Shown: positions 24,274-54,857 of the stretch, in pieces
How positions within the stretch are numbered: position 1 is the first letter of the stretch
How the letters are laid out: every line of letters begins with the position of its first letter
DNA from: Actinomadura sp. DC4
Lineage (GTDB): Bacteria; Actinomycetota; Actinomycetes; Streptosporangiales; Streptosporangiaceae
Length of the DNA stretch: 64,000 bases
Reading direction: 5' to 3'
Assembly (NCBI RefSeq): GCF_030406325.1
Contig: NZ_JAUEQY010000009.1
Location: 269,974 to 333,973 of the forward strand
The notes under the pieces: generated by a model
Database searches by the model: none
Told to the model about the DNA's origin: nothing
What the model saw: the letters and a program-made list of their open reading frames with translations, nothing else
Translations under genes and position numbers: made by a program

Positions 24274-25914
24274 TCAGCCGGTGCGCTCCAGTACGTGGTC
24301 GTCGAGGACAAGGACGTCCAGCTCGCTCCGCATGAACGTGGACAGGGCGTCCTCGGGTGAGCTCACGATGGGCTCGCCGGCCAGGTTGAAGGACGTGTTG
24401 AGCACGGCCGGCGTGCCGGTGCGGTCGCGGAACGCCTCGATCACCTCGTAGTAGCGCGGCGTCCATTCCCGGCGTACGAACTGCGGCCGCGCGGTGCCGT
24501 CGACGTGCACCGTCGCCGGCATCAGCGGGCGTACGCCGTCGCGCACGAGAGTCGCTCCGAGCATGTAGTGGCCTAGGTCGCCGACGTCGTGCGCGAAGAC
24601 GCGGTCGCGGTCCTCGGCCAGCACGCTGGGCGCGAGCGGCCGCCACAGCTCCCTGCCCTTGACCTGGTTCAACCGGCCGACCATCGCGCGGTGCCGCGGG
24701 TCGGCGAGGATGCTCCGGGCGCCCAGCGCCCGCTGCCCGACCTCGGCCCTGCCCTGATACCAGCCCACCAGGCGGCCCGCGGTGAGGTGCTCGGCGACGC
24801 AGTCGACCAGGTCGGAGTCGGAGAGCCGCTGGCCGGCCAGCGGCGCGGTCTCCGCGACCTCCGCCACCTGTCCGGAGTAGTCGCGGCCGAGGTAGGCGCC
24901 CACCCTGCCGTTCACGGTGGACATGCCGGCCATGCCGCCGTCCTTCGCGGCCAGCAGGGCCGCGCCGGCGGCCACGCCACAGTCGTAGGCGAACGGCGGC
25001 ACGTAGAGCTCCTCGACCGACGGGTGGCGCGCGAGCTTCCCGTTGGCGGAGCAGTTCATCGCGACCCCACCGGCCAGGACGACGTTGGCGCAGCCCGTCG
25101 CCGACACGGCGGCGCTGAACAGGGAGCTCAGCGCGGTCTCCAGGGAGGACTGCACGGAGGCCGCGAAGTCCGCGTACGCCATGATCTCCACACCGTCGCC
25201 CTCCCCGTACGGGAAGCACGCGGAGAAGTAGGGCGTGACACTGCGGTTCAGGGCCTCACGCAGTTCCGGCATGGTCCGGTTCGGCACTCGCTCAGCTCCG
25301 GCCAGCCGGTAGCCGTCCGAGGTCACCTCGATCGGCATCGCCATCGCCGGAGCGCCGTACGCGGCCAGGCCCATGAACTTGCCGACGTCGGTGGGCCCGA
25401 GCCCGGTCCACGACGACGCCTTGCTGTAGTAGCGGCCCAGTGACTCGGCGAGGTCCCACTGGGCCAGCTGCTTGAAGTCGTCGGCCTCGGCGTAGTACGT
25501 CGTCGTGGCGGCGTCCTCGCCCCGCCCATCCGTGATGATCACCGTCGCCCGGTCCCAGCCGCTGGTCCAGAACGCGCTGGCGGCGTGCGCCAGATGGTGG
25601 CCGTAAAAACGGATCGGGATCTCCTCGGGAACGCCGATGCGCTTCCGGAAGACATCCAGGGGGAAGCCTCGTCCCTCCAGCGCGAAGTATTTCGGCATAT
25701 CCCAGCCGACGGCGACGCACGAGACGTCGCTCAGCGCGATGCCGGCGTCTTTCAGGCAGGTCATCATGGCGTCACGAGGTGACTCGTTGACCGCGCGCTT
25801 GCGGCGGCTGATCCGTTCCTGCTCGACCAGTGAGATTATCTTACCGTCCTTCAGCAATGCCGCCGAGGCGTCATGTGATCCGGTATTGATCCCAACGATA
25901 TAGGTACTCGACAT
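24274..25914 (-). CDS. Carbamoyltransferase (NodU/CmcH/TobZ family)
   Basis: 546 residues from ATG 25914, with GGAGAAG upstream. The N-terminal ASKHA domain (GINTGSHDASAALLKDGK, EQERISRRKR, then GHHLAHAASAFW with metal-binding His residues) makes carbamoyl-adenylate from carbamoyl phosphate and ATP. The C-terminal domain has the conserved RALGARSILADPR block and SFNLAGEPIVSSPEDAL. The product is an O-carbamoyl ester on a hydroxyl. A slight oddity is AEVGQRALG where most have MEFGPRALG. It is divergent from the small precursor gene at 26138 and shares its promoter region, so it probably tailors the subcluster A product. The acceptor is unknown. Confidence 0.9.
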   Translation of the reverse strand: MSSTYIVGINTGSHDASAALLKDGKIISLVEQERISRRKRAVNESPRDAMMTCLKDAGIALSDVSCVAVGWDMPKYFALEGRGFPLDVFRKRIGVPEEIPIRFYGHHLAHAASAFWTSGWDRATVIITDGRGEDAATTTYYAEADDFKQLAQWDLAESLGRYYSKASSWTGLGPTDVGKFMGLAAYGAPAMAMPIEVTSDGYRLAGAERVPNRTMPELREALNRSVTPYFSACFPYGEGDGVEIMAYADFAASVQSSLETALSSLFSAAVSATGCANVVLAGGVAMNCSANGKLARHPSVEELYVPPFAYDCGVAAGAALLAAKDGGMAGMSTVNGRVGAYLGRDYSGQVAEVAETAPLAGQRLSDSDLVDCVAEHLTAGRLVGWYQGRAEVGQRALGARSILADPRHRAMVGRLNQVKGRELWRPLAPSVLAEDRDRVFAHDVGDLGHYMLGATLVRDGVRPLMPATVHVDGTARPQFVRREWTPRYYEVIEAFRDRTGTPAVLNTSFNLAGEPIVSSPEDALSTFMRSELDVLVLDDHVLERTG

Positions 25915-25990
25915 GGATACTTCTCCTTCGCGCCGAAAAAAGCCTCTCAATAAGGAACACCGCTGTCAAGGTGGACGGATATCGCTATTG

Positions 25991-26006
25991 CCGTAACGCG
26001 TTACGG
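25991..26006. promoter_or_regulatory. Perfect 16-bp palindrome in the divergent promoter region
   Basis: CCGTAACG followed at once by its complement. It is 77 bases upstream of the carbamoyltransferase start, where it could be an operator for that gene. The surrounding 25915-26137 interval is AT-rich for this genome, as expected of a promoter region. Confidence 0.6.
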
Positions 26007-26050
26007 GGCTGCTGACCTGGCAATACAAGTGCCTCATTGCGATAATTCGT

Positions 26051-26074
26051 CGCCTGTCAGGCACCTGACAGGCG
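26051..26074. promoter_or_regulatory. Perfect 24-bp palindrome upstream of precursor A
   Basis: Eleven-base arm CGCCTGTCAGG and its exact complement, two bases apart. It is followed by TTGCCA (26076), a plausible -35 element, and by TGCTAAAA about 18 bases later. It probably binds a dimeric regulator of the precursor gene; the regulator is not identified. Confidence 0.65.
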
Positions 26075-26137
26075 GTTGCCAGTGAGGTGATAGCGCGGTG
26101 TGCTAAAACAAATCGGAACAAGGGGAGGTGAACACAA

Positions 26138-26221
26138 ATGGGTGAGACCACCACGGCCCTCGATGTCGTCGAGGACACGTCGGAATACGACGTGATGCTT
26201 CTCCAGTGCGAGTGCTACTAG
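26138..26221 (+). CDS. Candidate RiPP precursor peptide A (27 residues)
   Basis: Too short for routine gene calling but well supported as translated: GGGGAGGTGA, a near-perfect ribosome site, lies 7-9 bases upstream of ATG. The peptide has seven acidic and no basic residues. The first 16 residues (to TSE) look like a leader, and the end is YDVMLLQCECY, with two Cys flanking a Glu and a terminal Tyr. It is followed by a stable hairpin and then by flavin dehydrogenases, a peptidase, an exporter and a methyltransferase, the usual order of a RiPP operon. It shares an EYD motif near the C-terminus with precursor B at 40882. It matches no precursor family I know; the core boundary and modifications are inference. 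Confidence 0.72.
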   Translation: MGETTTALDVVEDTSEYDVMLLQCECY

Positions 26222-26240
26222 TAAGACACAGGTAAGTCGG

Positions 26241-26283
26241 TGTCGTGGTGCCGGCGCTGGCAGACGGCGACGGCACCACGACA
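26241..26283 (+). terminator. Attenuator-like hairpin after precursor A
   Basis: A 13-bp perfect stem (TGTCGTGGTGCCG with its complement) around a 17-base loop, 19 bases after the precursor stop and 36 bases before the first dehydrogenase gene. No T-run follows, so partial read-through is likely, giving more precursor than enzyme mRNA. Confidence 0.7.
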
Positions 26284-26319
26284 TTCGACCGTTGCCGCCG
26301 AGTGACGTCTGAGGGCCTC

Positions 26320-27471
26320 ATGCTCGTGCGAATCAATCCAGCGGTCCGAGTGATTCCGCCGTCGGAGCTGGTCGGCGATCGCTGGATAGCGGAGAATCTG
26401 CTTGAGAAGAAGCGTTACAACCTTCAGGTGCCCGCGGCCGCGGCGCTCACCGCCGCGTTCCGGCCGCGTACGCCGGACGACCTCGCCGGGCGCCTGGCGG
26501 ACCACGATCCCCAGCGGAGGCCGGCGGCGTACTGGTCGGGTCTGGTCGAGGTGCTGCGCGACCGCGCGCTGATCGTCGAGGCGTCGCGGGCCGCAGGCGA
26601 CCCCCGGCTCGGCTGGCTGGCCGGGCTCCGTGAGAGCTGGAGCCGGTACGGCTGGGCCGAGGCCGCCGAGTACCACACGCTCGCCTACGACTACCCGTGC
26701 GTGGACTACTCCGAGGCGGCGGGCACGTACTTCGACCACGATCGCATGCGCGCCTACCAGGCCGTGGAGCCCGACACCGACCGGTACAAGCTGGACTACG
26801 CCGACCGGCCCGGGCTCCCGCTTCCCCCGCCCGGCGAGGAGATGGCGCCCGGGACGGTGCGCACCGTGTGGGGCGACGAGCGGCTCCGGAGCCGGGTCGA
26901 CGTCGAGGCCCTCTCCCGGGTCCTGTCGCTGTCCTTCGGCGCCACCGGGGTGCGGGTGCCGATCACCGACGCGGCGCCGCTGCTGCGCAGGAGCAGCCCG
27001 TCTGGAGGAGGGCGTAACCCCTCCGAGGGATACGTGGTCGTCCGGGACGTCGCCGGCGTCGAGGCGGGCCGCTACCACGTCACGATGCAGCCGTTCGGCC
27101 TGCGAAGGCTGGAAGACGGCGGCCCCATCGACGACGAGCAGATCCGCAGGATCTTCCCGGAGACCAGCCGGCGGTTCTCCGGCGACGTTCGGGCGCTGGT
27201 CGTCATCACGAGTTTCTTCGAGCGCAACATGTACCGCTATCGCGAGCCGCGCACCTTCCGGACGGTGCACATGGACGCGGGACACATCGCGAGCACGCTG
27301 TCGATGTCGGCGCGCGCGCTGGGACTGAGTGCCGGCGTCTACGACCGTGACGCGGCCGCGGACGTCGAACAGGCCCTGGGGATCCGGGGCATGCGGGAGG
27401 GCTACCTGCTCACCGTCGCCATCGCCGACGGCGCCGAGCCGGCGGAGCACGCACAGGGAGAACGACCATGA
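26320..27471 (+). CDS. SagB-family flavin-dependent peptide dehydrogenase
   Basis: 383 residues from ATG 26320. Residues about 1-190 are a winged-helix-like N-terminal part typical of SagB/ThcOx proteins, with a QVPAAAALTAAF segment. Residues about 215-375 are the nitroreductase-fold FMN domain, with RRSSPSGGGRNPSEGYVVV matching the family's FMN-binding R-x-S-P-SGG-x-N-P-x-E block. Known relatives oxidise azolines to azoles in peptides using FMN. No YcaO cyclodehydratase is encoded in the window, so the substrate bond is open. It overlaps the next gene by 4 bases (ATGA). Confidence 0.85.
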   Translation: MLVRINPAVRVIPPSELVGDRWIAENLLEKKRYNLQVPAAAALTAAFRPRTPDDLAGRLADHDPQRRPAAYWSGLVEVLRDRALIVEASRAAGDPRLGWLAGLRESWSRYGWAEAAEYHTLAYDYPCVDYSEAAGTYFDHDRMRAYQAVEPDTDRYKLDYADRPGLPLPPPGEEMAPGTVRTVWGDERLRSRVDVEALSRVLSLSFGATGVRVPITDAAPLLRRSSPSGGGRNPSEGYVVVRDVAGVEAGRYHVTMQPFGLRRLEDGGPIDDEQIRRIFPETSRRFSGDVRALVVITSFFERNMYRYREPRTFRTVHMDAGHIASTLSMSARALGLSAGVYDRDAAADVEQALGIRGMREGYLLTVAIADGAEPAEHAQGERP

Positions 27472-28547
27472 CGTCGGCTGCAAGCCCGGGGGCCCGCTGG
27501 CCGGCCGGATTCAGGATGAGGCCCGCCGCGGACCCGGAGTCGGCGGAGGTCGAGGTGACCGACGCGGCCACCGGCCGGCGGTTCCACTGGTCTCCCGAGA
27601 CGCTGTCCGAGCACATCATGCGCGGCGACACCGACCTCGCGACGCTGGACGACGGCGACGAGTGGAAGAACGCCCTCAAGACCTCGGACGAACGCCGTGA
27701 GCTCATCCCCGACTGGCGGCACTGGCAGCATCGCCGCTGGCACCCGTCCGACCACTACTACCTCGTCTCACGGCTCGGCGGGCAGGCGCAAGAGGCCGAC
27801 GTCGACGACTCCATCCGCCTCAGCATGATCGATCTCTTCCTGCTGGCGGACGGGCCGCCGCCGGAGGAGCGGCGCCCGGACGGCCCGGTGCTGTCGCTGG
27901 GCACGCCGCCGCCCCTCGGCGAGCAGGAGATCTCCCGGCTGCTCGTGACCCGCCGCAGCGGGCGCTCCTACATCAGGCGGGCGCCCTCGCTGGACAGCCT
28001 CTCGGCCCTGCTCTGGTACGGCCTCGCGGAGGTGCGCGCGGGCCGGCGCGACACCGGCCGGCTCGACCCGGCCACCTACCTGGACTGCTACGGCGCCGCC
28101 TGGGACTTCTACCTCTGCGTCTACAAGGTCGACGGAGCCGAGCCGGGCGTCTACCGGTACGACGTGCTGAACCACGAGCTGATCGGTGTACGGCCCGGTG
28201 ACCACCGCGACGCCATGATCGACGTCCTCCAGGGCATGCACTCGCCGGCGACCGCGGCGTGGACCCTCGGGCTGGTCGCCGACTTCCCCCGCTACCAGTG
28301 GCGCTACCGGCACGAGCACGGCCTGCGGCGTCTCTACCTCGAGGCGGGCGTCCTCGGCCAGCAGCTCATCGTCCTGGCCATGGCGTACGGCCTGAACACG
28401 CTGGTCACGCCCGCGCAGAAGGACCGCGCCTACCTGGCGCTGCACGACCTTCCCGAGGACCGCTTCGCGCCGGTCTACACACTCACGATGGGGCTCTCTC
28501 GCGGCAGCGAGGGCGTCGGCTTCGACAACGCCCCGGGCGCCTCGTGA
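27468..28547 (+). CDS. Second SagB-like protein, degenerate FMN motif
   Basis: 359 residues. Two nitroreductase/SagB landmarks are seen: LLVTRRSGRSYIRRAPSL and, later, EPGVYRYDVLNHELIGV plus LYLEAGVLGQQLIVLAMAYG. The SxGGxxP FMN block of the first paralogue is replaced by DPATYLDCYGAAWDFYLCV, so cofactor binding may be altered or shared in a heterodimer. It is translationally coupled on both sides (ATGA with the previous gene, GTGA with the next), which supports a complex with the 26320 product. The N-terminal 100 residues may be a peptide-binding region. Its catalytic status is uncertain. Confidence 0.78.
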   Translation: MTSAASPGARWPAGFRMRPAADPESAEVEVTDAATGRRFHWSPETLSEHIMRGDTDLATLDDGDEWKNALKTSDERRELIPDWRHWQHRRWHPSDHYYLVSRLGGQAQEADVDDSIRLSMIDLFLLADGPPPEERRPDGPVLSLGTPPPLGEQEISRLLVTRRSGRSYIRRAPSLDSLSALLWYGLAEVRAGRRDTGRLDPATYLDCYGAAWDFYLCVYKVDGAEPGVYRYDVLNHELIGVRPGDHRDAMIDVLQGMHSPATAAWTLGLVADFPRYQWRYRHEHGLRRLYLEAGVLGQQLIVLAMAYGLNTLVTPAQKDRAYLALHDLPEDRFAPVYTLTMGLSRGSEGVGFDNAPGAS

Positions 28548-30406
28548 CCGCGTCACCGGTGCTCGACGGCTCACGGCTCAGGCGGGCGCTGCTCGCCGTC
28601 GAGCGCGACACCGCGCCCAGGCTGTCGCCGGACGGCCGTTCGATCGCGTTCGTGCGGACCGACGACAACGGCCCGGAGCTGTGGATCCGCACCGGCGACG
28701 GCGCCGAGCGCCGGCTCGCCGCGCACCACGGGGAGGCGATCCAGGACCTCCGGTGGACGGCCGACGGCTCGACGCTGCTCTACCGGCACGCCCCGCGCGG
28801 GCGCGAGTCCTGGAGCCTTTCGGGACTGCGCGGTGCCGCCTTCGAGCCGATCACGATCGCCGCGCGGGGATCGGTCACCGGTTACTGGCCCTCCGGCACG
28901 GACCCCGACGCGCTCGCTTACAGCCGGCGCGGCCCGGGGAGCGGTCGCGGGGACCTGTACCGGGCCGACCTCGGCGACCCCGGCGGCGAGCACCGCCGGA
29001 TCGCGGTGAACCCGGGGTTCCACCGCTGGCTCGTGGACGGCGCGCTCCGGCCGCGCGGCGGTACCCGGCTCGCCGAGGACGGCTCGACGACGATCGTGCT
29101 GGGCGGCGACCTCGACACGGGGCGCGACGTGCTCACCGTGCCGGTCGACGCCGTCCCCGACCTGGCCGTGTACGGCTTCAGCCGCGACGGCGATCGTCTC
29201 TTTCTCCTGACGGGCGGTGAGACGGGCACGCGACGGCTGGTGGCGGCCGACTCGGGTGACGGCACGACCTCGACGGTCTTCGAGCACCCGGAGCTGGACG
29301 TCGGCGGCTACCCGATCGGCAACGACGGCGTGTGGTTCGACCCGGTGACCGGGCGGCCGGACGTCTGCGCGGTCATGGACCAGCGGCTGCGCTACCACGG
29401 GCTGACCGAACGGGCGCGCGCCGCCGTCGCGCGCCTCGCCGCCACCGACGAGCACTCCGCGGTCATCATCGACCGGAGCGCGGACGACCGTACCTGGCTG
29501 ATCGTCTACGTTCACGACGACGGCCCGATCGCCTACCACTCCTACGATCCCGTCACCGGGGCGACCGAGCCGCTGTTCGTCAACCGGCCCGACCTCGCCG
29601 GGCACCGGCTGTCACGGCTCGAGGACTTCCGTTTCACCGCGGACGACGGCCGCGAGCTGAGCGGGTACGCGATGCGCCCGCGCGCGGGAACGGCGCCGTT
29701 CCCGACGGTCGTACTCGTCCACGGCGGCCCGGCCAGCCGCGACTACTGGCGGTTCCACGCCGACGCGCAGTACCTGGCGTCGCTCGGCTACCTGTCGCTG
29801 CACGTCAACTACCGGGGGTCGAAGGGCTCCGGCGGCGAGTTCCGGATGGCGGGCCACGGCGAGTGGGGCGGCCGGATGCAGCGGGACCTGTACGACGCGG
29901 TGGCGCACGGCGTGTCGGCGGGGCTGGTGGACCCGGGCCGGGTCGCGTTCTTCGGCGCGTCGTACGGCGGCTACGCCTCACTGCTCGCCGCCTGCACCCG
30001 GCCGGATCTCGTGCGTTGCGCGGTCGCCATCAGCCCGCCCTGCGACCTGGTCTCCTTCACCCAGAAGCCGCCGCCGTACTGGCAGCCGCTCGCCGTACTG
30101 CTCCGGCGGCAGGTGCTCGGCGACCGTGGCGGCCGGCCGCTGGGGGAGCAGGCGCTCCGCCGCCGGTCACCCCTCCAGTCGCTGGACGCCTCGTGCGCGC
30201 CGGTGCTGCTCGCGCACGGCGTACGCGACCCTCGCGTGCCGGTCGCGGAGGTCGACCTGTTCGCGGACCGGGCGCGAGATCTCGGCGTCCCGGTCCGGTA
30301 CCTGCGGTTCGAGGACGAGGGGCACCACGTGAGGTCCAACGTCAACCGGCGGGCCCTCTTCACCGAAGTCGAGCATTTCCTGGAGGCACACCTTGGCGCC
30401 CGCTAG
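28544..30406 (+). CDS. S9 prolyl oligopeptidase-family peptidase
   Basis: 620 residues from GTG 28544. A beta-propeller (residues 1 to about 370, beginning with LSPDGRSIAFVR) precedes an alpha/beta hydrolase with Ser473 (FGASYGGYAS), Asp562 (HGVRDPRVP) and His594 (DEGHH). No signal peptide is seen. Peptidases of this family accept only short peptides through the propeller, which fits removal of a leader from a 27-residue precursor inside the cell. That role is inferred from position. The stop lies within the start of the next gene (14-base overlap). Confidence 0.9.
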   Translation: MTASPVLDGSRLRRALLAVERDTAPRLSPDGRSIAFVRTDDNGPELWIRTGDGAERRLAAHHGEAIQDLRWTADGSTLLYRHAPRGRESWSLSGLRGAAFEPITIAARGSVTGYWPSGTDPDALAYSRRGPGSGRGDLYRADLGDPGGEHRRIAVNPGFHRWLVDGALRPRGGTRLAEDGSTTIVLGGDLDTGRDVLTVPVDAVPDLAVYGFSRDGDRLFLLTGGETGTRRLVAADSGDGTTSTVFEHPELDVGGYPIGNDGVWFDPVTGRPDVCAVMDQRLRYHGLTERARAAVARLAATDEHSAVIIDRSADDRTWLIVYVHDDGPIAYHSYDPVTGATEPLFVNRPDLAGHRLSRLEDFRFTADDGRELSGYAMRPRAGTAPFPTVVLVHGGPASRDYWRFHADAQYLASLGYLSLHVNYRGSKGSGGEFRMAGHGEWGGRMQRDLYDAVAHGVSAGLVDPGRVAFFGASYGGYASLLAACTRPDLVRCAVAISPPCDLVSFTQKPPPYWQPLAVLLRRQVLGDRGGRPLGEQALRRRSPLQSLDASCAPVLLAHGVRDPRVPVAEVDLFADRARDLGVPVRYLRFEDEGHHVRSNVNRRALFTEVEHFLEAHLGAR

Positions 30407-31661
30407 TTCACCCGGCCTGCGGATGCGGTCGCGCTACACGCGCAGCGACCCCAAGGGCCTGTTCCCCCGTCTCACCGGCCTTCCCGAGCTGCCGCACAAC
30501 CGGCTCGGCGCCTTCTGGCGGCCGATCATCGACATGACCGACAGCGACCTGGCGTCGTCCCGGCTCCGCATGATCCGTCCGGTCGCCTCCTGGCTGGCCG
30601 ATCCGGCCTCGGCCGAGCCACTGTGGTTCGCGCGGATCAACGTCGCGGGCCTGCGTCACCAGGTGATCCGGCACTCGGGTCTGAACGCGTACGACTGCCA
30701 GGAGCCGAAGGACCTGGCCGAGGAGCTGCGCACGCCCGAGTGGGAGACGCTGGTACGGGCCATCGACGGGTTCGAGGACCTGGACTACTACGTCCGTACG
30801 ATCGTGCTCTTCCAGCTCGCCCAGCTCTCCTACTGCGAGCTGGGGGTACGGCTGGCCGGTGACGTCGAGCCCGACGGCGATCCCGTTCGCGACCGGTACG
30901 TCTACCAGGTGGCCCGGCTGCACGCGCGCCTGCCCGGCAGCAGGCCGCTCGCCCTGCGGCTCTTCGAGCGGCTCGCCACGTCGTCCAAGGACTCGCTGCT
31001 GGCGCTGCTGTCGTGCTTCCAGGGGATCAGCCACGCGATCCGCAAGGAGGACGACCTCGACCTGGCGTGCCGGTTCGAGCGGTACGGCCACGCGATCACC
31101 GGCCTGCCCGGCGACTGGCACACCTACCTGGTCAAGAGCCGCTTCCACCGGGCGCTGGCCCTGCTCCGCCTGAACGAGCGCCGGTTCGGGGAGATGCGCG
31201 ACGAGCTGGAGACGGCCCTGGACCTCCACGAGAGACTGCGTCCCGAGGTGTCCGGCGAGATCGACACGATGGTCGCGAACGAGAACCGGCGCATCCTGCT
31301 GGAGTCGCAGATCAACGCCGCGATCCGGGCCCGCGGTGACGAGTCCGCGACCCAGGTGCGGGCGCTGTGCGAGGAGATCATCGGGCTCGACCCGTACTGC
31401 GTGCTGGTCAGGCTCGCCGTAGGTGACGGGCACGCGGCCATCGGCGACCACGCCGAGGCGGCGCGCTGGTTCGAGCGGGCCGGCGAACTGGGCACCGGGG
31501 CCGGCGCGATCGGGTGGTTCCGCGCGGGGCAGTGCCACGACTTCCTCGGCGACCGCGGCGCCGCCGTCAACGCCTACGGACGCTGCCTGGAACTCGACGC
31601 GACGGCCGTCGAGCCCCGCGAGTATCTGACCACGGGCCGCCGGCCGGGCGATCCGGCATGA
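30393..31661 (+). CDS. TPR-type protein A1 of unknown function
   Basis: 422 residues from TTG 30393, supported by GGAGG six bases upstream and inside the S9 gene. It opens with a conserved block RYTRSDPKGLFPRLTGLP, then WFARINVAGLRHQVIRHSGL. The middle is alpha-helical, and the C-terminus has two TPR-like hairpins (GDHAEAARWFERAGELGTGA and DRGAAVNAYGRCLELDATA). The same layout appears in 33722 (close paralogue) and more distantly in 42764 and 44028, one pair per subcluster. No catalytic motif is visible. It may bind the precursor or scaffold the enzymes; I do not know the family. Confidence 0.7.
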   Translation: MAPASSPGLRMRSRYTRSDPKGLFPRLTGLPELPHNRLGAFWRPIIDMTDSDLASSRLRMIRPVASWLADPASAEPLWFARINVAGLRHQVIRHSGLNAYDCQEPKDLAEELRTPEWETLVRAIDGFEDLDYYVRTIVLFQLAQLSYCELGVRLAGDVEPDGDPVRDRYVYQVARLHARLPGSRPLALRLFERLATSSKDSLLALLSCFQGISHAIRKEDDLDLACRFERYGHAITGLPGDWHTYLVKSRFHRALALLRLNERRFGEMRDELETALDLHERLRPEVSGEIDTMVANENRRILLESQINAAIRARGDESATQVRALCEEIIGLDPYCVLVRLAVGDGHAAIGDHAEAARWFERAGELGTGAGAIGWFRAGQCHDFLGDRGAAVNAYGRCLELDATAVEPREYLTTGRRPGDPA

Positions 31662-33073
31662 CCGCGGACGTCGCCTCCGACGCGCGGACGCCGGTCCGCC
31701 AGATCGTCGTCCTCGGGCTCCCGTTCCTCCTCGGCGCCTTCTCCTCCTCGATCTCGGGTGTCATCGACACGGCCATGATGGGCCGGTACGGCTCCGCCGA
31801 GCTGGCGGCGGTGGCCGGCGCCTCGGCGATCTTCGACGTCCTCTCGGGCGTGGTGCTCGCCTCGGTCGTCGGCCACCAGATCCTGGCGGCGCGGTTCGCC
31901 GGCCGCGACGACCCCGCCGGGATACGCCGGTCGCTGCGGTCGTCGGTCCGGTACTGCGGCGGGCTGGCGATCCTGCTCACCCTGCTCTGCCTGTTCGGGG
32001 GCGGCTGGCTGACCGGGCTGATCTCGGACGGCCACGGCGACCTCCGCCGGCTCGGCGCGGACTACCTGACCGCCCGGGGCCCGACGCTGCTGCTGCTGGT
32101 GCCCTTCAGCCTCCTGGCCGCGACGTTCAACGCCTACAAGCGGCCGCGCTACGCGATGGTGGCGAGCGTCGTGGTCAACGCCGTCAACATCCTGCTCGAC
32201 TGGTTGTTGATCTACGGGCCCGGCCCGCTGCCGCGGCTCGGCGCGACCGGCAACGGGCTGGCGACCACGATCTCCTGGCTGCTGGGCATCGGCTGCCTGC
32301 TGGTGGCGGCCCGGCGCTTCGGCCTGGCGGACCTGCTGCGGCGGCCCGGCTCCGGCGAGGCCGCCGACTTCGAGACCTCGATTCTCCGGCTCGGCTGGCC
32401 GGCCGTCGTCTCGATGGGGCTGGACTACGCGAGCAACGCCATCTTCTTCGCCATCATCGGCGGGCTCGGCGAGGCCGCCCTGGGCGGCGGCCGGATCGCC
32501 TTCCAGACGATGGTCCTGATCTACGGCGTCGGCACGGCCTTCTCGTCGTCGGCGCGCATCCTCATCGGACGTGCCGCGGGCGCCGGCCGCGTGGAGGACT
32601 TTCCCGCCCTCTGGCGGGGCACCCGGCTGGTCCTGCTGCCGCCCGCCCTGGTCCTGACGGTCGCGCTGGTGGCCGCCCCCCGTTCCGCGGCGCTGCTGTT
32701 CACCTCGTTTCCCGCCGTGGTGACGGCCGCCGCCAGGGCGATGCCGCTGATCGGCCTCTGCGCCCTGCTGATCGCCTGGACGCTCGGCAACGTGAGCGTG
32801 CTCCGCGCGCTCGGCCAGACCCGCTGGGACATGTACGGAAACCTGGTGGCCGCGCTGTGCGTCCAGCTCCCCCTGAGCTGGCTGCTCGCGCGCGTGGCGG
32901 GGTTCGGTATCACCGGCGCGTACGTCGGCGTCGTCGGCTACTGGCTCGTCCGCGGCGCGCTGACCGAGATGCTCGCCCGAAGCGGCATCCGGCGCGAGAC
33001 GCGGCCCGCCGCCGTGGCGGAGGACGACGGCGTCCTGGAGCCCGCCGCCCCGATGCCGGACCCGAGAGCCTGA
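31658..33073 (+). CDS. MATE-family efflux transporter
   Basis: 471 residues with about 12 hydrophobic segments in two halves. The N-terminal QIVVLGLPFLLGAFSSSI and SGVIDTAMMGRYGSAELAAV match the MATE signature region, and YVGVVGYWLV closes the second half. MATE proteins export small molecules by Na+ or H+ antiport. It overlaps A1 by ATGA, and it is the only exporter in subcluster A, so it is probably the product exporter and self-resistance pump. Confidence 0.93.
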   Translation: MTADVASDARTPVRQIVVLGLPFLLGAFSSSISGVIDTAMMGRYGSAELAAVAGASAIFDVLSGVVLASVVGHQILAARFAGRDDPAGIRRSLRSSVRYCGGLAILLTLLCLFGGGWLTGLISDGHGDLRRLGADYLTARGPTLLLLVPFSLLAATFNAYKRPRYAMVASVVVNAVNILLDWLLIYGPGPLPRLGATGNGLATTISWLLGIGCLLVAARRFGLADLLRRPGSGEAADFETSILRLGWPAVVSMGLDYASNAIFFAIIGGLGEAALGGGRIAFQTMVLIYGVGTAFSSSARILIGRAAGAGRVEDFPALWRGTRLVLLPPALVLTVALVAAPRSAALLFTSFPAVVTAAARAMPLIGLCALLIAWTLGNVSVLRALGQTRWDMYGNLVAALCVQLPLSWLLARVAGFGITGAYVGVVGYWLVRGALTEMLARSGIRRETRPAAVAEDDGVLEPAAPMPDPRA

Positions 33074-33701: not shown

Positions 33702-33721
33702 GCGCGACGGACGGGTTCCGG

Positions 33722-34927
33722 GTGCGGCAGCGCTACACGCGTAGCGACCCCCGGGGCATGTTCCCGCGGGTCACGGGCCGTCCGGCGCTCCCGTACAACC
33801 GGCTCGCGGCCTTCTGGCGGCCGCTCTTCGACCTGACCGACAGCGAGGTCGCGCCGCTGCGGCTGCGGATGATCCGTCCGGTCGCGGCGTGGCTGGCCGA
33901 CCCGGCGTCGGCGGCGTGGCCGTGGTTCTCGCGGATCGGCCTCCCGGGCCTCCGGCGTCAGGTCGTCCGGCACGCGGGCCTGGACCGGTACGACTGTCAT
34001 GACCCACGGGATCTGCCCGAGGAGCTTCGCACGCCCGGGTGGACCACGCTGGCCGAGACGGTGGACCGGTTCGCCGAGCTCGACCATCGGGCCCGCACTC
34101 TCGTGGTCGTTCAGCTCACCCAGCTCTCCTATCACCCGCTCGCGCTGAAACTGGCCGGGGCCGTACGACCTGACGGCGACCCCGAACGGGACCGGTACGT
34201 CTACGAGGTCGCCCGGGTGCACGCCGGGTGTCCCGGCCACGCCGCACGCGCCCTCGCGCTGTTCGAGGACCTGGCCACCTCTTCCGGCGGGGGGCCGGTG
34301 GCGCTGGCCGCGTGCTTCCAGGGCATCGGTCACGCGATCCGCGACGCGAACGACCTCGCGCGGGCCCGGCGGTTCGAGGAACGCGGCCACGACCTGGCGA
34401 AACCGCCGGACGACTGGCACTCCTGTCTGGTCGGGAGCCGGTTCCACCGGGCGGTCGCCCTGCTCCGGCTGAAAGAGGGCGACACCGGAGCCGCGCGGCG
34501 CGCGCTGGCCGTGGCGGCACGCCTCCACGACGACCTGGCGGTCTCGCCGCCGACCGACGCGGACGAGATGATCGTTCGCGAGAACCGGCGCTACCTCCTC
34601 GAACTGGAGCTGGCCGCCGAGACGCGCGGCGTGCCGGGTCCGCGGACCCGCTCGCTCTGCCGCGAGCTGCTCCGGCTCGACCCGTACTGCGTGCACGCGC
34701 GCCTGCTCGCGGGAGACGGGTTCGCGGCCGCCGGGGACCACGCCGAGGCGGCGCTCTGGTACTCGCGCGCCGGTGAGCTCGGCACCGGAGCGGGCGCGAC
34801 CGGCTGGTTCCGCGCCGCGCAGTGTCACGACCTCCTCGGCGATCGCGCCGGCGCCGTCAACGCCATGGGGCGCTGCCTCGAACTCGACGCGACGGCCGTC
34901 GAGGCCCGCGACTACCTGACCGGCTGA
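33722..34927 (+). CDS. TPR-type protein A2 of unknown function (paralogue of A1)
   Basis: 401 residues from GTG 33722, the first standard start; a CTG at 33698 overlapping the previous stop would give an N-terminus aligned better with A1. It is clearly homologous to A1 along its full length (RYTRSDPRGMFPRVTGRP at the start, GELGTGAGATGWFRAAQCHD near the end). It keeps the C-terminal TPR hairpins and has no visible catalytic motif. The duplication with retention of both copies in one operon suggests a heterodimer or two stage-specific partners. Confidence 0.68.
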   Translation: MRQRYTRSDPRGMFPRVTGRPALPYNRLAAFWRPLFDLTDSEVAPLRLRMIRPVAAWLADPASAAWPWFSRIGLPGLRRQVVRHAGLDRYDCHDPRDLPEELRTPGWTTLAETVDRFAELDHRARTLVVVQLTQLSYHPLALKLAGAVRPDGDPERDRYVYEVARVHAGCPGHAARALALFEDLATSSGGGPVALAACFQGIGHAIRDANDLARARRFEERGHDLAKPPDDWHSCLVGSRFHRAVALLRLKEGDTGAARRALAVAARLHDDLAVSPPTDADEMIVRENRRYLLELELAAETRGVPGPRTRSLCRELLRLDPYCVHARLLAGDGFAAAGDHAEAALWYSRAGELGTGAGATGWFRAAQCHDLLGDRAGAVNAMGRCLELDATAVEARDYLTG

Positions 34928-40881: not shown

Positions 40882-40989
40882 ATGGACGAGCTGCGCAATG
40901 GCGTCGAGCTGCCGGAAAGCGAGGAGGCACTCCTCGCCGACTTCGGTGTGCTGGTCGCGGCCGAGTACGACTACTCGCTCGGCGGCTGA
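40882..40989 (+). CDS. Candidate RiPP precursor peptide B (35 residues)
   Basis: ATG 40882 follows GGGAGGGTGA, a very strong ribosome site. The peptide has nine acidic and one basic residue. A leader-like first half (LPESEEALLADFGVLV, amphipathic) is followed by AAEYDYSLGG at the C-terminus. Two Tyr flank an Asp, candidate sites for the halogenase at 41154 and the HExxH hydroxylase at 45308. The terminal Gly-Gly recalls substrates of E1-like enzymes, one of which is encoded at 46523. A stable hairpin follows the stop. It shares the EYD motif with precursor A. No known precursor family is recognised; translation is well supported, modifications are inferred. Confidence 0.75.
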   Translation: MDELRNGVELPESEEALLADFGVLVAAEYDYSLGG

Positions 40990-41034
40990 TCGGACCCTTA
41001 CTGCCGTGGGCGGAGCTCATCGGCCCGCCTCCGT

Positions 41035-41069
41035 CGCCGGAGGCGACCTGTTCCGGGTCGCCTCCGGCG
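41035..41069 (+). terminator. Attenuator-like hairpin after precursor B
   Basis: A 14-bp perfect stem (CGCCGGAGGCGACC and its complement) around a seven-base loop, 46 bases after the precursor stop and 85 bases before the halogenase start. It mirrors the hairpin after precursor A. Confidence 0.75.
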
Positions 41070-41153
41070 GCCCGCCCGGTCGTTTCGCCGCGCCGGCGCG
41101 TTCATGAAGGCCCGTTGTCCCGAGCGATGCCCTGACAAGGTGGTTCCGATCTC

Positions 41154-45311: not shown

Positions 45312-46495
45312 CAGTGGTGAACGAGCGTGCGCTCGACCCCGGCGCGGTGGATGACGGCGTCTGGGACGCCATGGTGACCCGCAACCTCACGCGACTGCCG
45401 GAACTGGTGGAACTCGGCCGGACACTGCGTGGGGAGGGGGTCGGTGAGCGGCACGTCGACGCCCTCGCGTCGGCCGTCGACGCGCTTCCCCGGGCGAAGA
45501 GCGCGGCGGTCGTCGCGGACCCGCTGTACAGCCACTGGTCCTCGAAGGTGAGCAGAAACTCCGACGCCCGATGGATCCTCGAACTCGGCCGGCTGATCCT
45601 GCTGCCCCATCTGCGGGGCGGAACCCTCCCCGCGAGCGGGGTCTTCGTGCCGGTGCACGCGGACGCGGCGGTCCACGTACCCGGGCTGGACCGCGTACGG
45701 GCGCCCGGCACGCTCGCCGGCGCCATCACCCGGCTCGCCGTCGAAGAGGACCTGCTGGTCATGGGGGCTCCGGAGACGACGGTGGTCGGCCCGGTGGACC
45801 GGCTCGTGGACGCGGAACGCCGGCGTCGGAGCGGAGCGGCCGGCGTGTTCGCCGACGGTTCGGACCCCTGGGCGACGGGGGTGCTCACCGCGATGAACGA
45901 CGCGCCACGGGTCGGCCCGTACCCGCGCCGTGACATCACCCCGCTGCCGGAGCCGGGCGATGACCTCCGGGCCACCTTCGCCGAGGCGCTGCGACTGCTG
46001 GCCGGGACCTGGCCGGAGGCCCACGCCGAGGTGACTCGGTACACCACGCTGATCGTCCCGTTCCATAGCCGGTATCTGCTCGGCTGGTCGACACCCCTCT
46101 TCCAGGGGGCGGCCTTCATCCGCGCGGCGCCCGGGGACGTGCTGTTCACCTTCGAGCGGATCGTGCACGAGTCGGCGCACCAGAGGCTGTTCGCGATCCA
46201 GCGGTCGGTGCGCATCCACGACGACCCGCCGGGCAGACGCCTTCCCTCGGCTCTCAGGAAGGACCCGCGTCCGACCGCGGGTGTCTACCACGCCGCCTTC
46301 GTCTGCGGCCGGCTCGTCCAGGCGTTCGCCCGCGCACTCGAGCGCCCCCTCGGCGAGCAGTGGGAACAGCGGTACGAACAGCTCACCGGGGCCTACTTCG
46401 ACATGTCCGAGACCCTGCACACCCACGCGTCGCTGACGCGGATCGGACGCGACATGCTCACCAACCTCGATGGCCGCGTACGCGCGGCGATCTGA
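45308..46495 (+). CDS. HExxH-type peptide beta-hydroxylase (mod_HExxH family)
   Basis: 395 residues. The motif H287-E288-S-A-H291 (RIVHESAHQRLFAI), then RKDPRPTAGVYHAAFVCGRL, matches the family first annotated as HEXXH putative RiPP modification proteins and later described as 2-oxoglutarate- and iron-dependent peptide beta-hydroxylases. In that family the HExxH His residues bind iron rather than acting in proteolysis. It likely hydroxylates a beta carbon of a core residue of precursor B (Asp30 or a Tyr are candidates). It is coupled to B2 by a 4-base overlap. The site and product are inferred. Confidence 0.83.
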   Translation: MTVVNERALDPGAVDDGVWDAMVTRNLTRLPELVELGRTLRGEGVGERHVDALASAVDALPRAKSAAVVADPLYSHWSSKVSRNSDARWILELGRLILLPHLRGGTLPASGVFVPVHADAAVHVPGLDRVRAPGTLAGAITRLAVEEDLLVMGAPETTVVGPVDRLVDAERRRRSGAAGVFADGSDPWATGVLTAMNDAPRVGPYPRRDITPLPEPGDDLRATFAEALRLLAGTWPEAHAEVTRYTTLIVPFHSRYLLGWSTPLFQGAAFIRAAPGDVLFTFERIVHESAHQRLFAIQRSVRIHDDPPGRRLPSALRKDPRPTAGVYHAAFVCGRLVQAFARALERPLGEQWEQRYEQLTGAYFDMSETLHTHASLTRIGRDMLTNLDGRVRAAI

Positions 46496-46522
46496 CGACG
46501 CTGGGACCAGGAGGTCGGCACG

Positions 46523-47683
46523 GTGGACCGCAGTGCGATGGAAGGGGAGACCCGGCGCAGGCTCCGGCTGAGGGCCAGCACCCAGCGGATCGTGAGCGGG
46601 GACTCGCTCGTCCTGGCGCTCGGCTCCGCGCGCGCCCGCCTCCGGCCGTTCGACCAGACCGCGGAGAAGGTGCTCTGGCGCCTGGCCGACGGCGTCGACG
46701 TGGTCGAAGAACTGCGCTCGCTGCCCGGCGAGCGCAGGCCGGCGTTCGCCGAGTGGTTCGACACCCTGCGCCGTGGAGACCTCCTGGAACCGGCCGACGC
46801 CGATGGGACGACCCTCGCCGACACCGATCTGCTCCGCTTCGACCGTCTGCTGAACCGGCTGGCGACCTATGAGTCCCCGGACCGTGATCGCTGGAAGATC
46901 CTGGAGAGCCTGCGTGGCAGGACGGTCGCGGTGCTCGGTGTCGGCGGGCTCGCCTCATGGGTGCTCTACAACCTCGTGTGCTGCGGAGTCGGGCGGCTCC
47001 GGCTGATCGACGCGGACGTGGTCGAGCTGTCCAACCTCAACCGGTCGATCCTGTTCGCCGAGGCGGACGTGGGCCGCCGGAAGATCGACGCGGTACGGGA
47101 CTCGCTGCTGCGCTTCGCGCCACGTACGGTCATCGAGGGCGTCGAACTCCAGGTCACCTGCGCCGACGATCTGGCCGAGGCGTTGTCCGGCGTGGACCTT
47201 CTGATCGCGACCGGAGACAAGCCCGCGTGGCTGATCCGCGAGTGGGTCGTCGTCGCCGGGCGACGGCTCGGGATCCCGACGCTGCATCCGGGCCGTGGGA
47301 GGGTGGGCCCGTTCGATCTGAACGACGGCCGCGGCTGCGCGCTGTGCGAGTGGGCGGATCTGGTGAGCCGTCACCCCGGTGCGCCGGCGCAGCTCGCCAC
47401 GCTGCGGCGGCTGCCCCAATCCGATCCCGGGCCCATCAGCCCGGTCGGCGGGATGACCGCGGCGTTCACGGCCCAGGAGGCGTTCCGCTACCTGGTCGGG
47501 GTGGAACCGGTGACCGCCGGCCGTGCCTGGCAGCTCAACCCCGACCTGACCTCACGGCTGACCGGGGCCGTACGCAACGACAGGTGCCCCACCTGCGGTT
47601 CGCCGGATGATCCGGCCCGTGTGGGGCCGCCCTCCGAGCTGATTCCCGGCGTCGGAGCGGCCGGTCATGACACGCGTGCGTGA
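46523..47683 (+). CDS. ThiF/E1-like adenylating enzyme with N-terminal winged-helix (RRE-like) domain
   Basis: 386 residues from GTG 46523, with AGGAGG upstream. Residues 1-95 resemble a PqqD-type peptide recognition element (FDQTAEKVLWRLADGVDVVE, LRRGDLLEP). Residues about 130-380 are an E1/ThiF domain with nucleotide loop GVGGLASWVL, DADVVELSNLNR, VGRRKIDAV and LIATGDKPAWLIRE. Cys pairs CALC and CPTC form a likely zinc site. Relatives either adenylate a peptide C-terminus (MccB) or deliver leader peptides to a YcaO (ocin-ThiF). No YcaO is seen, and precursor B ends in Gly-Gly, so C-terminal activation is possible. It overlaps the flavin reductase gene by 17 bases. Confidence 0.85.
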   Translation: MDRSAMEGETRRRLRLRASTQRIVSGDSLVLALGSARARLRPFDQTAEKVLWRLADGVDVVEELRSLPGERRPAFAEWFDTLRRGDLLEPADADGTTLADTDLLRFDRLLNRLATYESPDRDRWKILESLRGRTVAVLGVGGLASWVLYNLVCCGVGRLRLIDADVVELSNLNRSILFAEADVGRRKIDAVRDSLLRFAPRTVIEGVELQVTCADDLAEALSGVDLLIATGDKPAWLIREWVVVAGRRLGIPTLHPGRGRVGPFDLNDGRGCALCEWADLVSRHPGAPAQLATLRRLPQSDPGPISPVGGMTAAFTAQEAFRYLVGVEPVTAGRAWQLNPDLTSRLTGAVRNDRCPTCGSPDDPARVGPPSELIPGVGAAGHDTRA

Positions 47684-48206
47684 CGCGGTCGGACGACTCG
47701 CCGTCGACGCCGACCGCGTGGCCGCCGATGACCACAGAGAACTCATGAGCCGTTTCCCGGCCGGAGTGGCGATCGTGACCACCGCTGATCGCGACGGGGT
47801 TCCGTACGGCCTGACCTGTACCGCGTTCGCCAGCGTGGGGCTGGACCCGCCCACGCTGCTGGTGTGCCTGCACCGGGACAGCCGGACGCTGCGGGCACTG
47901 CGCTCACGTGGAGCGTTCGCGGTGCATCTGCTGGACGCCGATTCGGCGGACACGGCCGCCTCGTTCGCGGAACGCGACGGTGACCCCTTCGCGGTGGTCG
48001 CGTGGGCGCCGTCGGCGCGGTTCGGCATCCCGATCGTGAGCGGCCGCACCGTCGGGCACGCGGAGTGCGTCGTGGCCGGGAGCACCGACGCGAGCGACCA
48101 CGTGGTGGTGTTCGGAGAGGTCGTCGCCACCTCACTGGGCGCCGGCGACCCGATGGTCTACGGCCTGCGGGAGTTCGTCCGCTGGCCGGGGCGTCCGGCG
48201 AGCTGA
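47667..48206 (+). CDS. Flavin reductase (HpaC-like, FMN/FAD)
   Basis: 179 residues from ATG 47667. The segment RFPAGVAIVTTADRDGVPYG and then CTAFASVGLDPPTLLVCLHR is the typical flavin reductase domain, ending with VYGLREFVRW. It reduces FAD or FMN with NAD(P)H. Co-transcription with the halogenase operon makes it the natural supplier of FADH2 for the 41154 halogenase. Confidence 0.92.
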   Translation: MTRVRDAVGRLAVDADRVAADDHRELMSRFPAGVAIVTTADRDGVPYGLTCTAFASVGLDPPTLLVCLHRDSRTLRALRSRGAFAVHLLDADSADTAASFAERDGDPFAVVAWAPSARFGIPIVSGRTVGHAECVVAGSTDASDHVVVFGEVVATSLGAGDPMVYGLREFVRWPGRPAS

Positions 48207-48215
48207 GGGAGCACC

Positions 48216-51967: not shown

Positions 51968-52809
51968 GCACTTCGTCGGAAGGGATGGGCAGGATGACGC
52001 AGACCCGCTCCGAGAGCGCGGACGAGATCCGTTCGAGGGATGCCGATGAGAGTTATGGGCCCGTGTTCGCCGCCGTTTACGACGCCGAGTGGAAGCGGCA
52101 CGTTCCGGTCGTCGGAGCGGCCCTGATCAGGTTCGCCGAGACCGATGACGACATCTCGGTGAACCGCCCGGTACTCGACGTCTGCTGCGGTACCGGGCAC
52201 GTGTCCTGCCACCTGGCGAACCACGGTTTCGACGTCGTGGGTATTGACGCGTCTCCGCACATGATCGGGAGAGCCAGGGAGAACGCCGAGAAGACCGACG
52301 ATGCTCACAGGCTTCGGTTCGCGGTCCAGGACGCGACGGAGATGAACGTCGGCCGCGGGTTCGGGCTGGCGGTCTCGACGCTCGACGCGATGAACCACTT
52401 GACGGACCTCGCCGAACTGCGGAAATGCTTTTCCTCGGTCCGTACGGCATTGGCCCCGGGTGGTGTGTTCGTCTTCGACATGCACACCGTGTCCGGCCTT
52501 CGCGAACTGAACCGCGTCGAGGTACGAGAGACCCCGGACACCTTGTTCGTGGCCCGAACCATTTATGACCCGTACGCCGAGGTCCTGGTCGCCCGGATAT
52601 CCGGGTGCCGGCGGGACGGCGCCACCTGGCAGCGCTTCACGCATTCGGTGCGAGAGCGTGCGTATCCTTCTCGTTCCATCGAGGAGGCACTCCACGACGC
52701 GGGCTTCGACCGGGTCCACGCCGCCGAGCCGGCCGACCTCCACACCCCGCTGCCGAACGCGGATGACCTGCCGCGCGCGTTCTACGTGGCCCGGAACTCC
52801 ACTTCATGA
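51964..52809 (+). CDS. Class I SAM-dependent methyltransferase
   Basis: 281 residues from GTG 51964 (GTGA overlap); ATG 51994 is an alternative. The SAM loop is VLDVCCGTGHVSCHLANHG, then GIDASPHMIGRAREN and FAVQDATEMN. The C-terminal half is like small-molecule N- or O-methyltransferases. It may methylate the subcluster B product. It is the last gene of the operon; a hairpin follows. Confidence 0.88.
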   Translation: MSTSSEGMGRMTQTRSESADEIRSRDADESYGPVFAAVYDAEWKRHVPVVGAALIRFAETDDDISVNRPVLDVCCGTGHVSCHLANHGFDVVGIDASPHMIGRARENAEKTDDAHRLRFAVQDATEMNVGRGFGLAVSTLDAMNHLTDLAELRKCFSSVRTALAPGGVFVFDMHTVSGLRELNRVEVRETPDTLFVARTIYDPYAEVLVARISGCRRDGATWQRFTHSVRERAYPSRSIEEALHDAGFDRVHAAEPADLHTPLPNADDLPRAFYVARNSTS

Positions 52810-54089: not shown

Positions 54090-54255
54090 CGATCCCTTGG
54101 TTCTGAAATGGACATATTGCTCGCCAGTGGACGGAGTGCGGGGAAGAAACAGTGCAGGAACCCTCTCCGTGCCCTCCCGGCCGGCTGGGGCCACAGGCCC
54201 GGTTTGTCGTACTTTCTTTCTTGTTCTGGCTGCCTGCACGCTTCTTCACGGCAGG

Positions 54256-54384
54256 CATCACCTGTCGGTAAACTAACGTTGATTCCATCACCTTTAGGCG
54301 ATGGATGTGGACGAGGCTAAGAATGTCTCATCGTAATGTCAACTCAGGTTTGTGAGCAGAGGTGAACATCGAATGAAGGTGATG
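54256..54384. promoter_or_regulatory. Divergent promoter with repeated CATCACC half-sites
   Basis: CATCACC occurs at 54256 and 54286, its complement GGTGATG at 54378, and a variant GGCGATG at 54297. The 54285-54304 pair forms an imperfect inverted repeat around TTTA. These lie between the decarboxylase and HTH gene starts and may be binding sites for the HTH protein. Confidence 0.45.
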
Positions 54385-54407
54385 TGAGAGCGGGAGGGAG
54401 GGGCTCT

Positions 54408-54857
54408 GTGGAGAAGGACCGAGAGGTGCGGGGCGAGCAGATGACACTCGCAGATCGGATTGACCTGCTGTTTCGCACGGTCCATCCCGCGGGCGGTAAG
54501 CCGTACTCCCTGGAGTACGTCGCCTCCGGGATCGAAAAGATCACCGGGGAGAAGATCTCGGCCAACGCGATCTGGAAGCTGCGCAAGGGCAAGAGCGCCA
54601 ACCCGACCAAGAAGACGATCGAGGGGCTGGCCGGCTTCTTCGGTGTGCCGCCGAGCTACTTCTTCGACGAGGCGCCGGAGCGGGCAGGGGAGGAGCTCCG
54701 GTTGCTCGCGGCGATGCGCGACGGCAGGGGCGCCCGGCTTCGCAGTTTTCTCGACCTGTCACCGGCAGGCCAGGAGATGGTGGCCGAGCTGATCGCCTAC
54801 GCGGCTCACATGGAGCAGGGCAAGGACGACACCAGCGATCAGAAGGACACGGAATAA
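54408..54857 (+). CDS. XRE/EspR-like helix-turn-helix regulator
   Basis: 149 residues from GTG 54408, preceded by GGAGGGG; ATG 54441 would give 138 residues. The DNA-binding part is MTLADRIDLLFRTVHPAGGK then ISANAIWKLRKGK and TIEGLAGFFGVPPSYFFDE, as in EspR-like regulators of actinomycetes. The C-terminal part has a dimerisation-like helix (SPAGQEMVAELIAYAAHME). It is divergent from the decarboxylase and may control it, or the end of subcluster B. Confidence 0.85.
   Translation: MEKDREVRGEQMTLADRIDLLFRTVHPAGGKPYSLEYVASGIEKITGEKISANAIWKLRKGKSANPTKKTIEGLAGFFGVPPSYFFDEAPERAGEELRLLAAMRDGRGARLRSFLDLSPAGQEMVAELIAYAAHMEQGKDDTSDQKDTE

Follow-up and report, generated by a model that had tools for sequence, protein, structure and literature searches.

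We found that a 64,000-nucleotide stretch of the Actinomadura sp. DC4 genome (hereafter, the window; G000:C101:269974-333973 of a 10.67-Mb assembly in 101 contigs) carries two neighboring gene sets, each headed by its own short, acidic, conserved gene, and we consider it probable that these are two separate clusters making two different ribosomally synthesized and post-translationally modified peptides (RiPPs), with tetratricopeptide repeat (TPR) proteins likely holding the peptide for the enzymes. Half A (26138-34927) contains precursor A, two SagB-like flavoenzymes, an S9 peptidase, TPR1, a multidrug and toxic compound extrusion (MATE) exporter, a methyltransferase, and TPR2. Half B (40882-52809) contains precursor B, a halogenase-like enzyme, TPR3, TPR4, an α-ketoglutarate (aKG)-HExxH-type hydroxylase, an E1/ThiF-type enzyme, a flavin reductase, a major facilitator superfamily (MFS) exporter, an M16 peptidase, and a methyltransferase. 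Genes are tightly packed in both halves, with several 4-base overlaps. An initial annotation had taken the halves for versions of one pathway plan or for builders of two parts of one compound, a proposal that found no support, given that types A and B occur separately in other genomes and that their TPR proteins lie on different branches.

Two acidic mini-genes conserved with their enzymes

Both acidic mini-genes are real, and each is directly followed by a hairpin:

26138..26221, + strand: precursor A, MGETTTALDVVEDTSEYDVMLLQCECY; open reading frame (ORF) with a strong ribosome site, homologue at the same place in a related locus (L102), 6 database matches
26222..26300, + strand: hairpin 3' of precursor A; -47.6 kcal/mol, z -6.5, 0 of 200 shuffles as good
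40882..40989, + strand: precursor B, MDELRNGVELPESEEALLADFGVLVAAEYDYSLGG; homologues at the cluster head in two related loci (L101 and L023), 16 database matches
40990..41085, + strand: hairpin 3' of precursor B; -57.8 kcal/mol, z -3.5, 1 of 200 shuffles as good

Precursor A has 27 amino acids and a net charge of -7, and precursor B has 35 and a net charge of -8. Throughout the 64 kb, just three ATG-initiated ORFs of 20-45 codons are preceded by a 6-base Shine-Dalgarno match; two are precursors A and B, the sole acidic ones with coding-like GC content at third codon positions (GC3), and the third (17572-17435, - strand) has a net charge of +1 and no GC3 bias. The initial annotation had pointed out both ORFs, with their very strong ribosome sites and the hairpin behind each, and these observations were borne out, each hairpin beating at least 199 of 200 shuffles. 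We rejected the hairpins as intrinsic terminators, as a consensus scan of 25900-41200 gave no terminator-like site at either of them and no T run is present.

A precursor B profile built from three sequences (window, L101, and L023) matched 16 proteins among 5.8 billion (E 4e-21 to 2e-7), 13 of them new after setting aside the window's own and the two query relatives. The alignment of 17 rows, in which the window sequence was entered twice, shows ten invariant columns, nine of which lie in the C-terminal half (LL..FG.L..AEY.Y) and are followed by 2-5 variable residues. The conserved core reads EY[NDT]Y in all 17 rows, with EYDY and a short variable tail, SLGG, in the window. Precursor B and the E1 gene share one contig in Nonomuraea sp. 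MG754425 (L101/L021) and N. cypriaca (L023), and are paired by record match in N. angiospora and Streptomyces sp. NBC_01013. For type A, the evidence consists of one full relative locus, L102, where a 40-amino-acid homologue occupies the same position ahead of SagB1, and of small database proteins without context (six matches, one being L102's own). Five of the seven aligned precursor A sequences end in QCECY and two in QGRIY; the window tail is YDVMLLQCECY, and the tails of L102 and P0045 are YDVMLIQGRIY, without Cys, Ser, or Thr.

In both precursor types, amino acid conservation spans genera and lies in the tails, the starts being variable, and the two types do not resemble each other beyond chance (p 0.19). 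Judged from the sequences, each cluster pairs a short conserved precursor gene with adjacent tailoring enzymes, as expected of RiPPs. The RiPP-like nature proposed at the outset therefore gains support, as each short ORF is kept with its enzymes elsewhere and conservation concentrates in the C-terminal half. Loss of the small ORFs where the enzymes are kept, which the initial annotation had named as a sign against its proposal, was not what we saw: precursor B is kept with its enzymes in L101 and L023, and precursor A in L102.

Types A and B occur apart in other genomes

Two relatives with a type B cluster belong to Nonomuraea. L101 carries precursor B, MFS, halogenase, a TPR pair, three HExxH genes, E1, M16, methyltransferase, and flavin reductase, with no type A gene in the 20-kb stretch covered. 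L023 carries precursor B, MFS, a TPR pair, two HExxH genes, E1, and a diverged M16, and no halogenase, methyltransferase, or flavin reductase of the type B kind was recognised in its stretch. The same type B core order recurs in Nocardia tenerifensis (L022) on a 7-kb contig that begins inside a TPR gene, with type A missing as far as this contig reaches. L102, in turn, holds precursor A, SagB1, SagB2, S9, a TPR gene, MATE, a flavin-reductase-like gene, a second TPR gene, a methyltransferase, and a third TPR gene, together with a TIGR03975 RiPP radical SAM methyltransferase (611 bits against a cut-off of 281.85); E1, HExxH, and halogenase genes are missing from it. Wherever the fetched stretch was complete, each type came with its own exporter and peptidase. 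Since types A and B are separate in other genomes, the window holds two distinct cluster types as neighbors; halves found in unrelated contexts with other precursors, the outcome named beforehand as telling against a common plan, is what L102 versus L101 and L023 present. We regard it as likely that two different members of a TPR-linked RiPP group stand side by side in the window, with the TPR family as their common feature.

None of the seven other genomes of the genus matched E1 (E <= 1e-30) or SagB1 (E <= 1e-20), and type B (E <= 1e-40) was found in the window's own genome only among 394 genomes of the class, a draw that leaned to the same family. SagB1 matched in 12 of 338 genomes at E <= 1e-20, its own included. 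Among these, G109 carries a type A cluster, in G150 a SagB pair is accompanied by an E1 without a TPR match, and five genomes (G244, G207, G080, G173, and G225) have a single SagB1-like gene each, G225 also showing weak matches to methyltransferase 2 and the MFS exporter; complete retrieval did not extend to G043, G071, G230, and G262.

Across three loci, the number of HExxH genes was seen to vary with the core of precursor B, the window having one with EYDY, and L101 and L023 three and two, respectively, with EYNY. The extra HExxH enzyme may go with the core Asn of EYNY.

Gene content of the two halves

Cluster A encodes the following proteins besides its precursor:

26320..27471, + strand: SagB-like flavoenzyme 1, nitroreductase fold; PF00881 35.5 bits (cut-off 23.5), TIGR03605 71.6
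27468..28547, + strand: SagB-like flavoenzyme 2; PF00881 27.7 bits (cut-off 23.5), TIGR03605 55.1
28544..30406, + strand: S9 prolyl-oligopeptidase-type peptidase; PF00326 126.7 bits, GASYGG motif
30423..31661, + strand: TPR protein 1; PF07719 27.1 (cut-off 27), full-length family alignment
31658..33073, + strand: MATE exporter; PF01554 121.5 bits
33105..33701, + strand: S-adenosylmethionine (SAM) methyltransferase 1; PF13578 29.3 bits (cut-off 26.3)
33722..34927, + strand: TPR protein 2; 61% identity to TPR1, under Pfam TPR cut-offs

Both SagB-like proteins fall below the TIGR03605 (SagB family peptide dehydrogenase) cut-off of 78.4 bits. Cluster B encodes:

41154..42707, + strand: flavin-dependent halogenase-like enzyme; PF04820 119.6 bits, WLWFIP and KSGAIFRWG motifs
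42764..44023, + strand: TPR protein 3; PF07719 33.4 bits, model with a predicted local distance difference test score of 91.9
44028..45311, + strand: TPR protein 4; homology to the second TPR gene of relatives, under Pfam cut-offs
45308..46495, + strand: aKG-HExxH-type peptide beta-hydroxylase; TIGR04267 78.3 bits (cut-off 40), HESAH motif, PDB match to ChlH (E 8e-7)
46523..47683, + strand: E1/ThiF-type adenylyltransferase with an N-terminal domain like a RiPP recognition element (RRE); PF00899 110.2 bits, best PDB matches PaaA and MccB
47667..48206, + strand: flavin reductase; PF01613 125 bits
48252..49490, + strand: MFS exporter; PF07690 72.2 bits
49487..51967, + strand: M16 metallopeptidase; PF00675 29.9 bits (cut-off 22.3), HVLEH motif
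51994..52809, + strand: SAM methyltransferase 2; PF13649 67.1 bits, NF041820 73.0 (under its cut-off of 175)

The halogenase-like protein has the features that would place it in the Trp_halogenase family, namely the family match, a WxWxIP motif, and the catalytic Lys; we take WLWFIP and KSGAIFRWG to be the latter two. For the aKG-HExxH protein, ChlH was the only PDB match. The structural model of the E1 protein aligns end to end with MccB (over 12-359) and PaaA (over 16-352), and it retains the PaaA ATP-site residues R174 and K187 in an ungapped alignment, both invariant in 18 relatives; the model thus supports an RRE-E1 type with RRE-like and adenylation domains.

Compared with the initial annotation, Pfam matches bore out one peptidase (S9 or M16), one exporter (MATE or MFS), and one methyltransferase per half. 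A single flavoenzyme per half was right as to kind, SagB-like or halogenase, and wrong as to number, half A having two SagB-like genes. The second SagB-like gene had been overlooked, as had the E1/ThiF, aKG-HExxH hydroxylase, and flavin reductase genes of half B. Two SARP-type (Streptomyces antibiotic regulatory protein) regulators do lie between the halves, as described before:

35087..37915, + strand: SARP-type regulator 1; PF03704 131.4 bits
37981..40779, + strand: SARP-type regulator 2; PF03704 124.9 bits

At the near end, a NodU-like carbamoyltransferase gene (24274-25950, - strand; 143.5 bits versus the NodU cut-off of 1000) diverges from precursor A. It stood at the start of the stretch as originally delimited, but it points in the opposite direction, and none like it was found in the L102 locus. 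At the far end of half B lies a pyridoxal-phosphate-dependent Orn/DAP/Arg decarboxylase-type gene (52881-54239, - strand), not found in the L101 and L023 stretches. Farther out, a large protein (56922-59045, - strand) carries an HEVAH-type motif in a region that presumably resembles a DUF4157 domain.

A TPR family accompanies four precursor types

The TPR-type pair reported for each half was recovered, with TPR2 and TPR4 falling below every Pfam TPR cut-off and being placed by homology to TPR1, TPR3, and relatives. TPR1 and TPR3 share 26% identity over 385 columns. In a maximum-likelihood tree of 21 TPR proteins, TPR1 and TPR2 grouped with L102 (100/100) and TPR3 with L101 (96/91), so that the halves do not stem from a recent duplication; TPR4 formed a long branch of unsure placement, and type A and type D (see below) TPRs formed one clade (100/99). 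A Foldseek fold comparison returned TPR proteins only, with modest TM-scores. At E <= 0.001, 116 of 297 genomes had a TPR match, many to generic repeats only, and we examined a minority of the 116. The initial annotation had suggested looking for such proteins beside short ORFs elsewhere, and a TPR3 match at E <= 7.6e-10 occurred in 15 other genomes, of which 13 had a mini-precursor cluster at the match and two had none. At the TPR-match regions G150:C34, G161, and G244:C403, no precursor cluster was found.

The same full-length TPR family adjoins two further conserved mini-precursor types, C and D. Type C (L111-L113) has a precursor of 54-60 amino acids with the tail AAAIL[ST]YE[YE], and E1, TPR, cupin, B12 radical SAM, MFS, cytochrome P450, and SARP genes in all three loci; in L111, the precursor was seen to be followed by a strong hairpin (z -6.4). 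Type D (L114-L118 and L142-L144) has the tail EFDVL[GA][NT]KSY, with YcaO, TPR, MFS, and hydrolase genes in 8/8 loci, and its YcaO protein occurs (E <= 1e-60) in 8 of 338 family genomes, the very eight in which the type D TPR is found. Six of the eight type D loci, all with NKSY, contain a JmjC gene, and the two loci without it (L114 and L118) have TKSY, a covariation with a chance of 1 in 28 assuming independent loci. Because JmjC presence tracks NKSY versus TKSY in these sequences, the JmjC enzyme likely acts on the tail Asn. In six pairwise comparisons of the precursor types, only A and D were alike beyond chance (p 0.0065), so a leader motif common to all types was rejected. Nor is the TPR gene universal: in L134, a SagB pair and an E1 occur without a TPR match, and L121-L123 have an E1 with none. 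L120 (E1, MFS, and a weak TPR match) showed no recognisable precursor resembling the others. In L134 (9205-19112), we also noted an S9 peptidase beside the SagB pair and E1-like enzyme, and a candidate precursor (9205-9348) unlike precursor A.

Proposed pathways

In cluster A, the TPR pair would bind precursor A through its acidic DVVEDTSEYDVML part, and the two SagB-like flavoenzymes would oxidise the tail YDVMLLQCECY without azole formation, most likely by Tyr desaturation to dehydrotyrosine; the methyltransferase would then cap, the S9 peptidase trim, and the MATE protein export the product. In cluster B, the RRE-like domain of E1 and the TPR pair would bind precursor B, and E1 would activate a carboxylate by adenylation as in the pantocin pathway, the conserved Glu28 being the likeliest site. 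Asp30 or a Tyr would be beta-hydroxylated by the HExxH enzyme, and Tyr chlorinated by the halogenase with the flavin reductase, with methylation, M16 trimming, and MFS export as the last steps. The hairpins may keep the mRNA of the precursors more abundant than that of the enzymes, and the operons may be switched on by the two SARPs. More tentatively, and with somewhat less than even confidence, we propose a new RiPP superclass, marked by no shared enzyme but by TPR carriers that hold an acidic mini-precursor and pass it to interchangeable chemistry (a YcaO-free SagB pair in A; E1, HExxH, and halogenase in B; E1, cupin, B12 radical SAM, and P450 in C; YcaO with or without JmjC in D), with A yielding a dehydrotyrosine peptide and B a chlorinated, beta-hydroxylated, E1-cyclised Glu-Tyr-Asp-Tyr peptide.

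Alternative explanations

The arrangement of the window does invite the idea of one plan, or of two parts of one compound such as a two-component product: the halves are adjacent with two SARPs between them, both contain the same TPR family (TPR1 and TPR3), and each comes with a single exporter, peptidase, and methyltransferase. Yet the types occur apart in L102 versus L101 and L023, the TPR proteins of the halves sit on different branches, and the two precursors are unlike, which leaves this reading quite unlikely, even if a joint product of both halves in this one strain is possible. The TPR proteins might instead serve to sense or regulate the mature peptide in the cytoplasm, similar to Rap and NprR, and stand outside the modification machinery. 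We judge this unlikely, as the TPR genes lie inside the biosynthetic operons, joined by 4-base overlaps to the MATE and HExxH genes, come in pairs or threes, and encode no DNA-binding Pfam domain in the window, while two SARPs already serve regulation.

Other readings concern the short ORFs and their enzymes. That the ORFs are regulatory leader peptides or chance ORFs ahead of ordinary operons would suit the strong hairpins directly behind them, but it has next to no probability in view of their amino acid conservation, which extends across genera and covers the tails but not the starts, and of the type D tail residue that covaries with the JmjC gene. Precursor B ends in Gly-Gly and shares an operon with a ThiF-type E1, as would a ThiS/MoaD-like carrier whose C-terminus is adenylated and loaded with sulfur for another product. 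This we rejected as very improbable: Gly-Gly occurs in 3 of 17 rows, which stand for two different sequences since that of the window appears twice; no part of the precursor varies more than the tail; and the E1, closest to MccB and PaaA, carries an RRE-like domain. We likewise rejected, as rather improbable, that the SagB-like pair oxidises azolines formed on the two Cys of QCECY by a YcaO from another part of the genome. Two YcaO matches do exist on contig C45, and QCECY is found in five of seven precursor A rows, but the C45 matches adjoin LanB-type matches and hence look like part of another cluster, and L102 retains both SagB genes with a tail that, like that of P0045, offers no Cys, Ser, or Thr. 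Our preferred reading thus remains that of two separate, TPR-assisted clusters.

RiPP mining mostly uses class-defining enzymes or RRE domains. A TPR family that tracks precursors of 25-55 amino acids across four enzyme sets would provide a class-independent handle for RiPP discovery. The window could serve as a test case for nitroreductase-type chemistry without YcaO, and for RRE-E1 action on an aromatic core alongside a halogenase and an HExxH hydroxylase. Such a family would also inform the role of TPR proteins at other RiPP loci, called unclear in PMC8939145.

Comparison with known systems

As the initial annotation had noted, the window contains no YcaO, radical SAM, LanB, or LanC, each of which we found elsewhere in the same genome. 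The two YcaO matches lie on C45, so that the window does not fit a thiazole/oxazole-modified microcin or azole system of the SagBCD type, and LanB (PF04738) and LanC (PF05147) matches occur on other contigs only, so that it does not fit a lanthipeptide. On C45 (G000:C45:73945-81362), LanB-type and YcaO matches stand together in a thiopeptide-like arrangement; the strain holds other RiPP-type loci. The view that no standard class fits was broadly right, except that half B has an RRE-E1 of the kind used for pantocin A and microcin C, as well as an aKG-HExxH hydroxylase.

Pantocin A (PaaP, PaaA, PaaB, and PaaC) combines a 30-amino-acid precursor and EEN core with an RRE-bearing E1, an iron/2-oxoglutarate-type oxygenase, and one exporter (PMC12250964). 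Cluster B is similar in its short precursor (35 versus 30 amino acids), conserved core with variable flanks, RRE-E1 with R174 and K187, oxygenase, and single exporter (PMC12250964). It differs in its core, EY[NDT]Y instead of EEN, and in having an HExxH-type hydroxylase in place of PaaB, and it adds a TPR pair, halogenase, flavin reductase, M16 peptidase, and methyltransferase. In microcin C biosynthesis, the MccB substrate is a seven-residue peptide without a long leader; precursor B is longer, with 35 amino acids and a variable C-terminus. The aKG-HExxH RiPP enzymes ChlH, BpmH, PesO, and PflC resemble that of cluster B, as indicated by TIGR04267 above cut-off and the ChlH match, and the pes cluster likewise has M16 peptidases (PMC13060819). 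However, their clusters rest on radical SAM or multinuclear nonheme iron-dependent oxidative (MNIO) enzymes, none of which was recognised in the window, where radical SAM was searched for and MNIO was not.

For cluster A, a close parallel is PflD, whose nitroreductase domain forms dehydrophenylalanine in a RiPP setting without YcaO (PMC12636437). Both have a nitroreductase-fold enzyme in a YcaO-free RiPP setting; PflD is fused to an MNIO, whereas the two SagB-like proteins of cluster A stand alone and go with other precursors. Graspetide loci can place TPR proteins and SagB-like nitroreductases beside precursors, but they are defined by ATP-grasp ligases, and the TPR likeness to the window is by description only (PMC8939145). 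The biphenomycin and pbs clusters have HExxH and JmjC hydroxylases, an MFS exporter, and aromatic core peptides, but rely on MNIO, B12 radical SAM, and a TPR-bearing arginase (PMC12257519); in Pfam, the window TPR proteins match nothing but TPR families. The excerpted text of an RRE study (PMC12710340) does not mention TPR, and the accessible parts of the open-licence literature hold no description of these precursors or this combination, which is no proof of absence. Singly, the elements are already known: RiPPs, RRE-E1 enzymes, HExxH hydroxylases, and YcaO-free nitroreductases.

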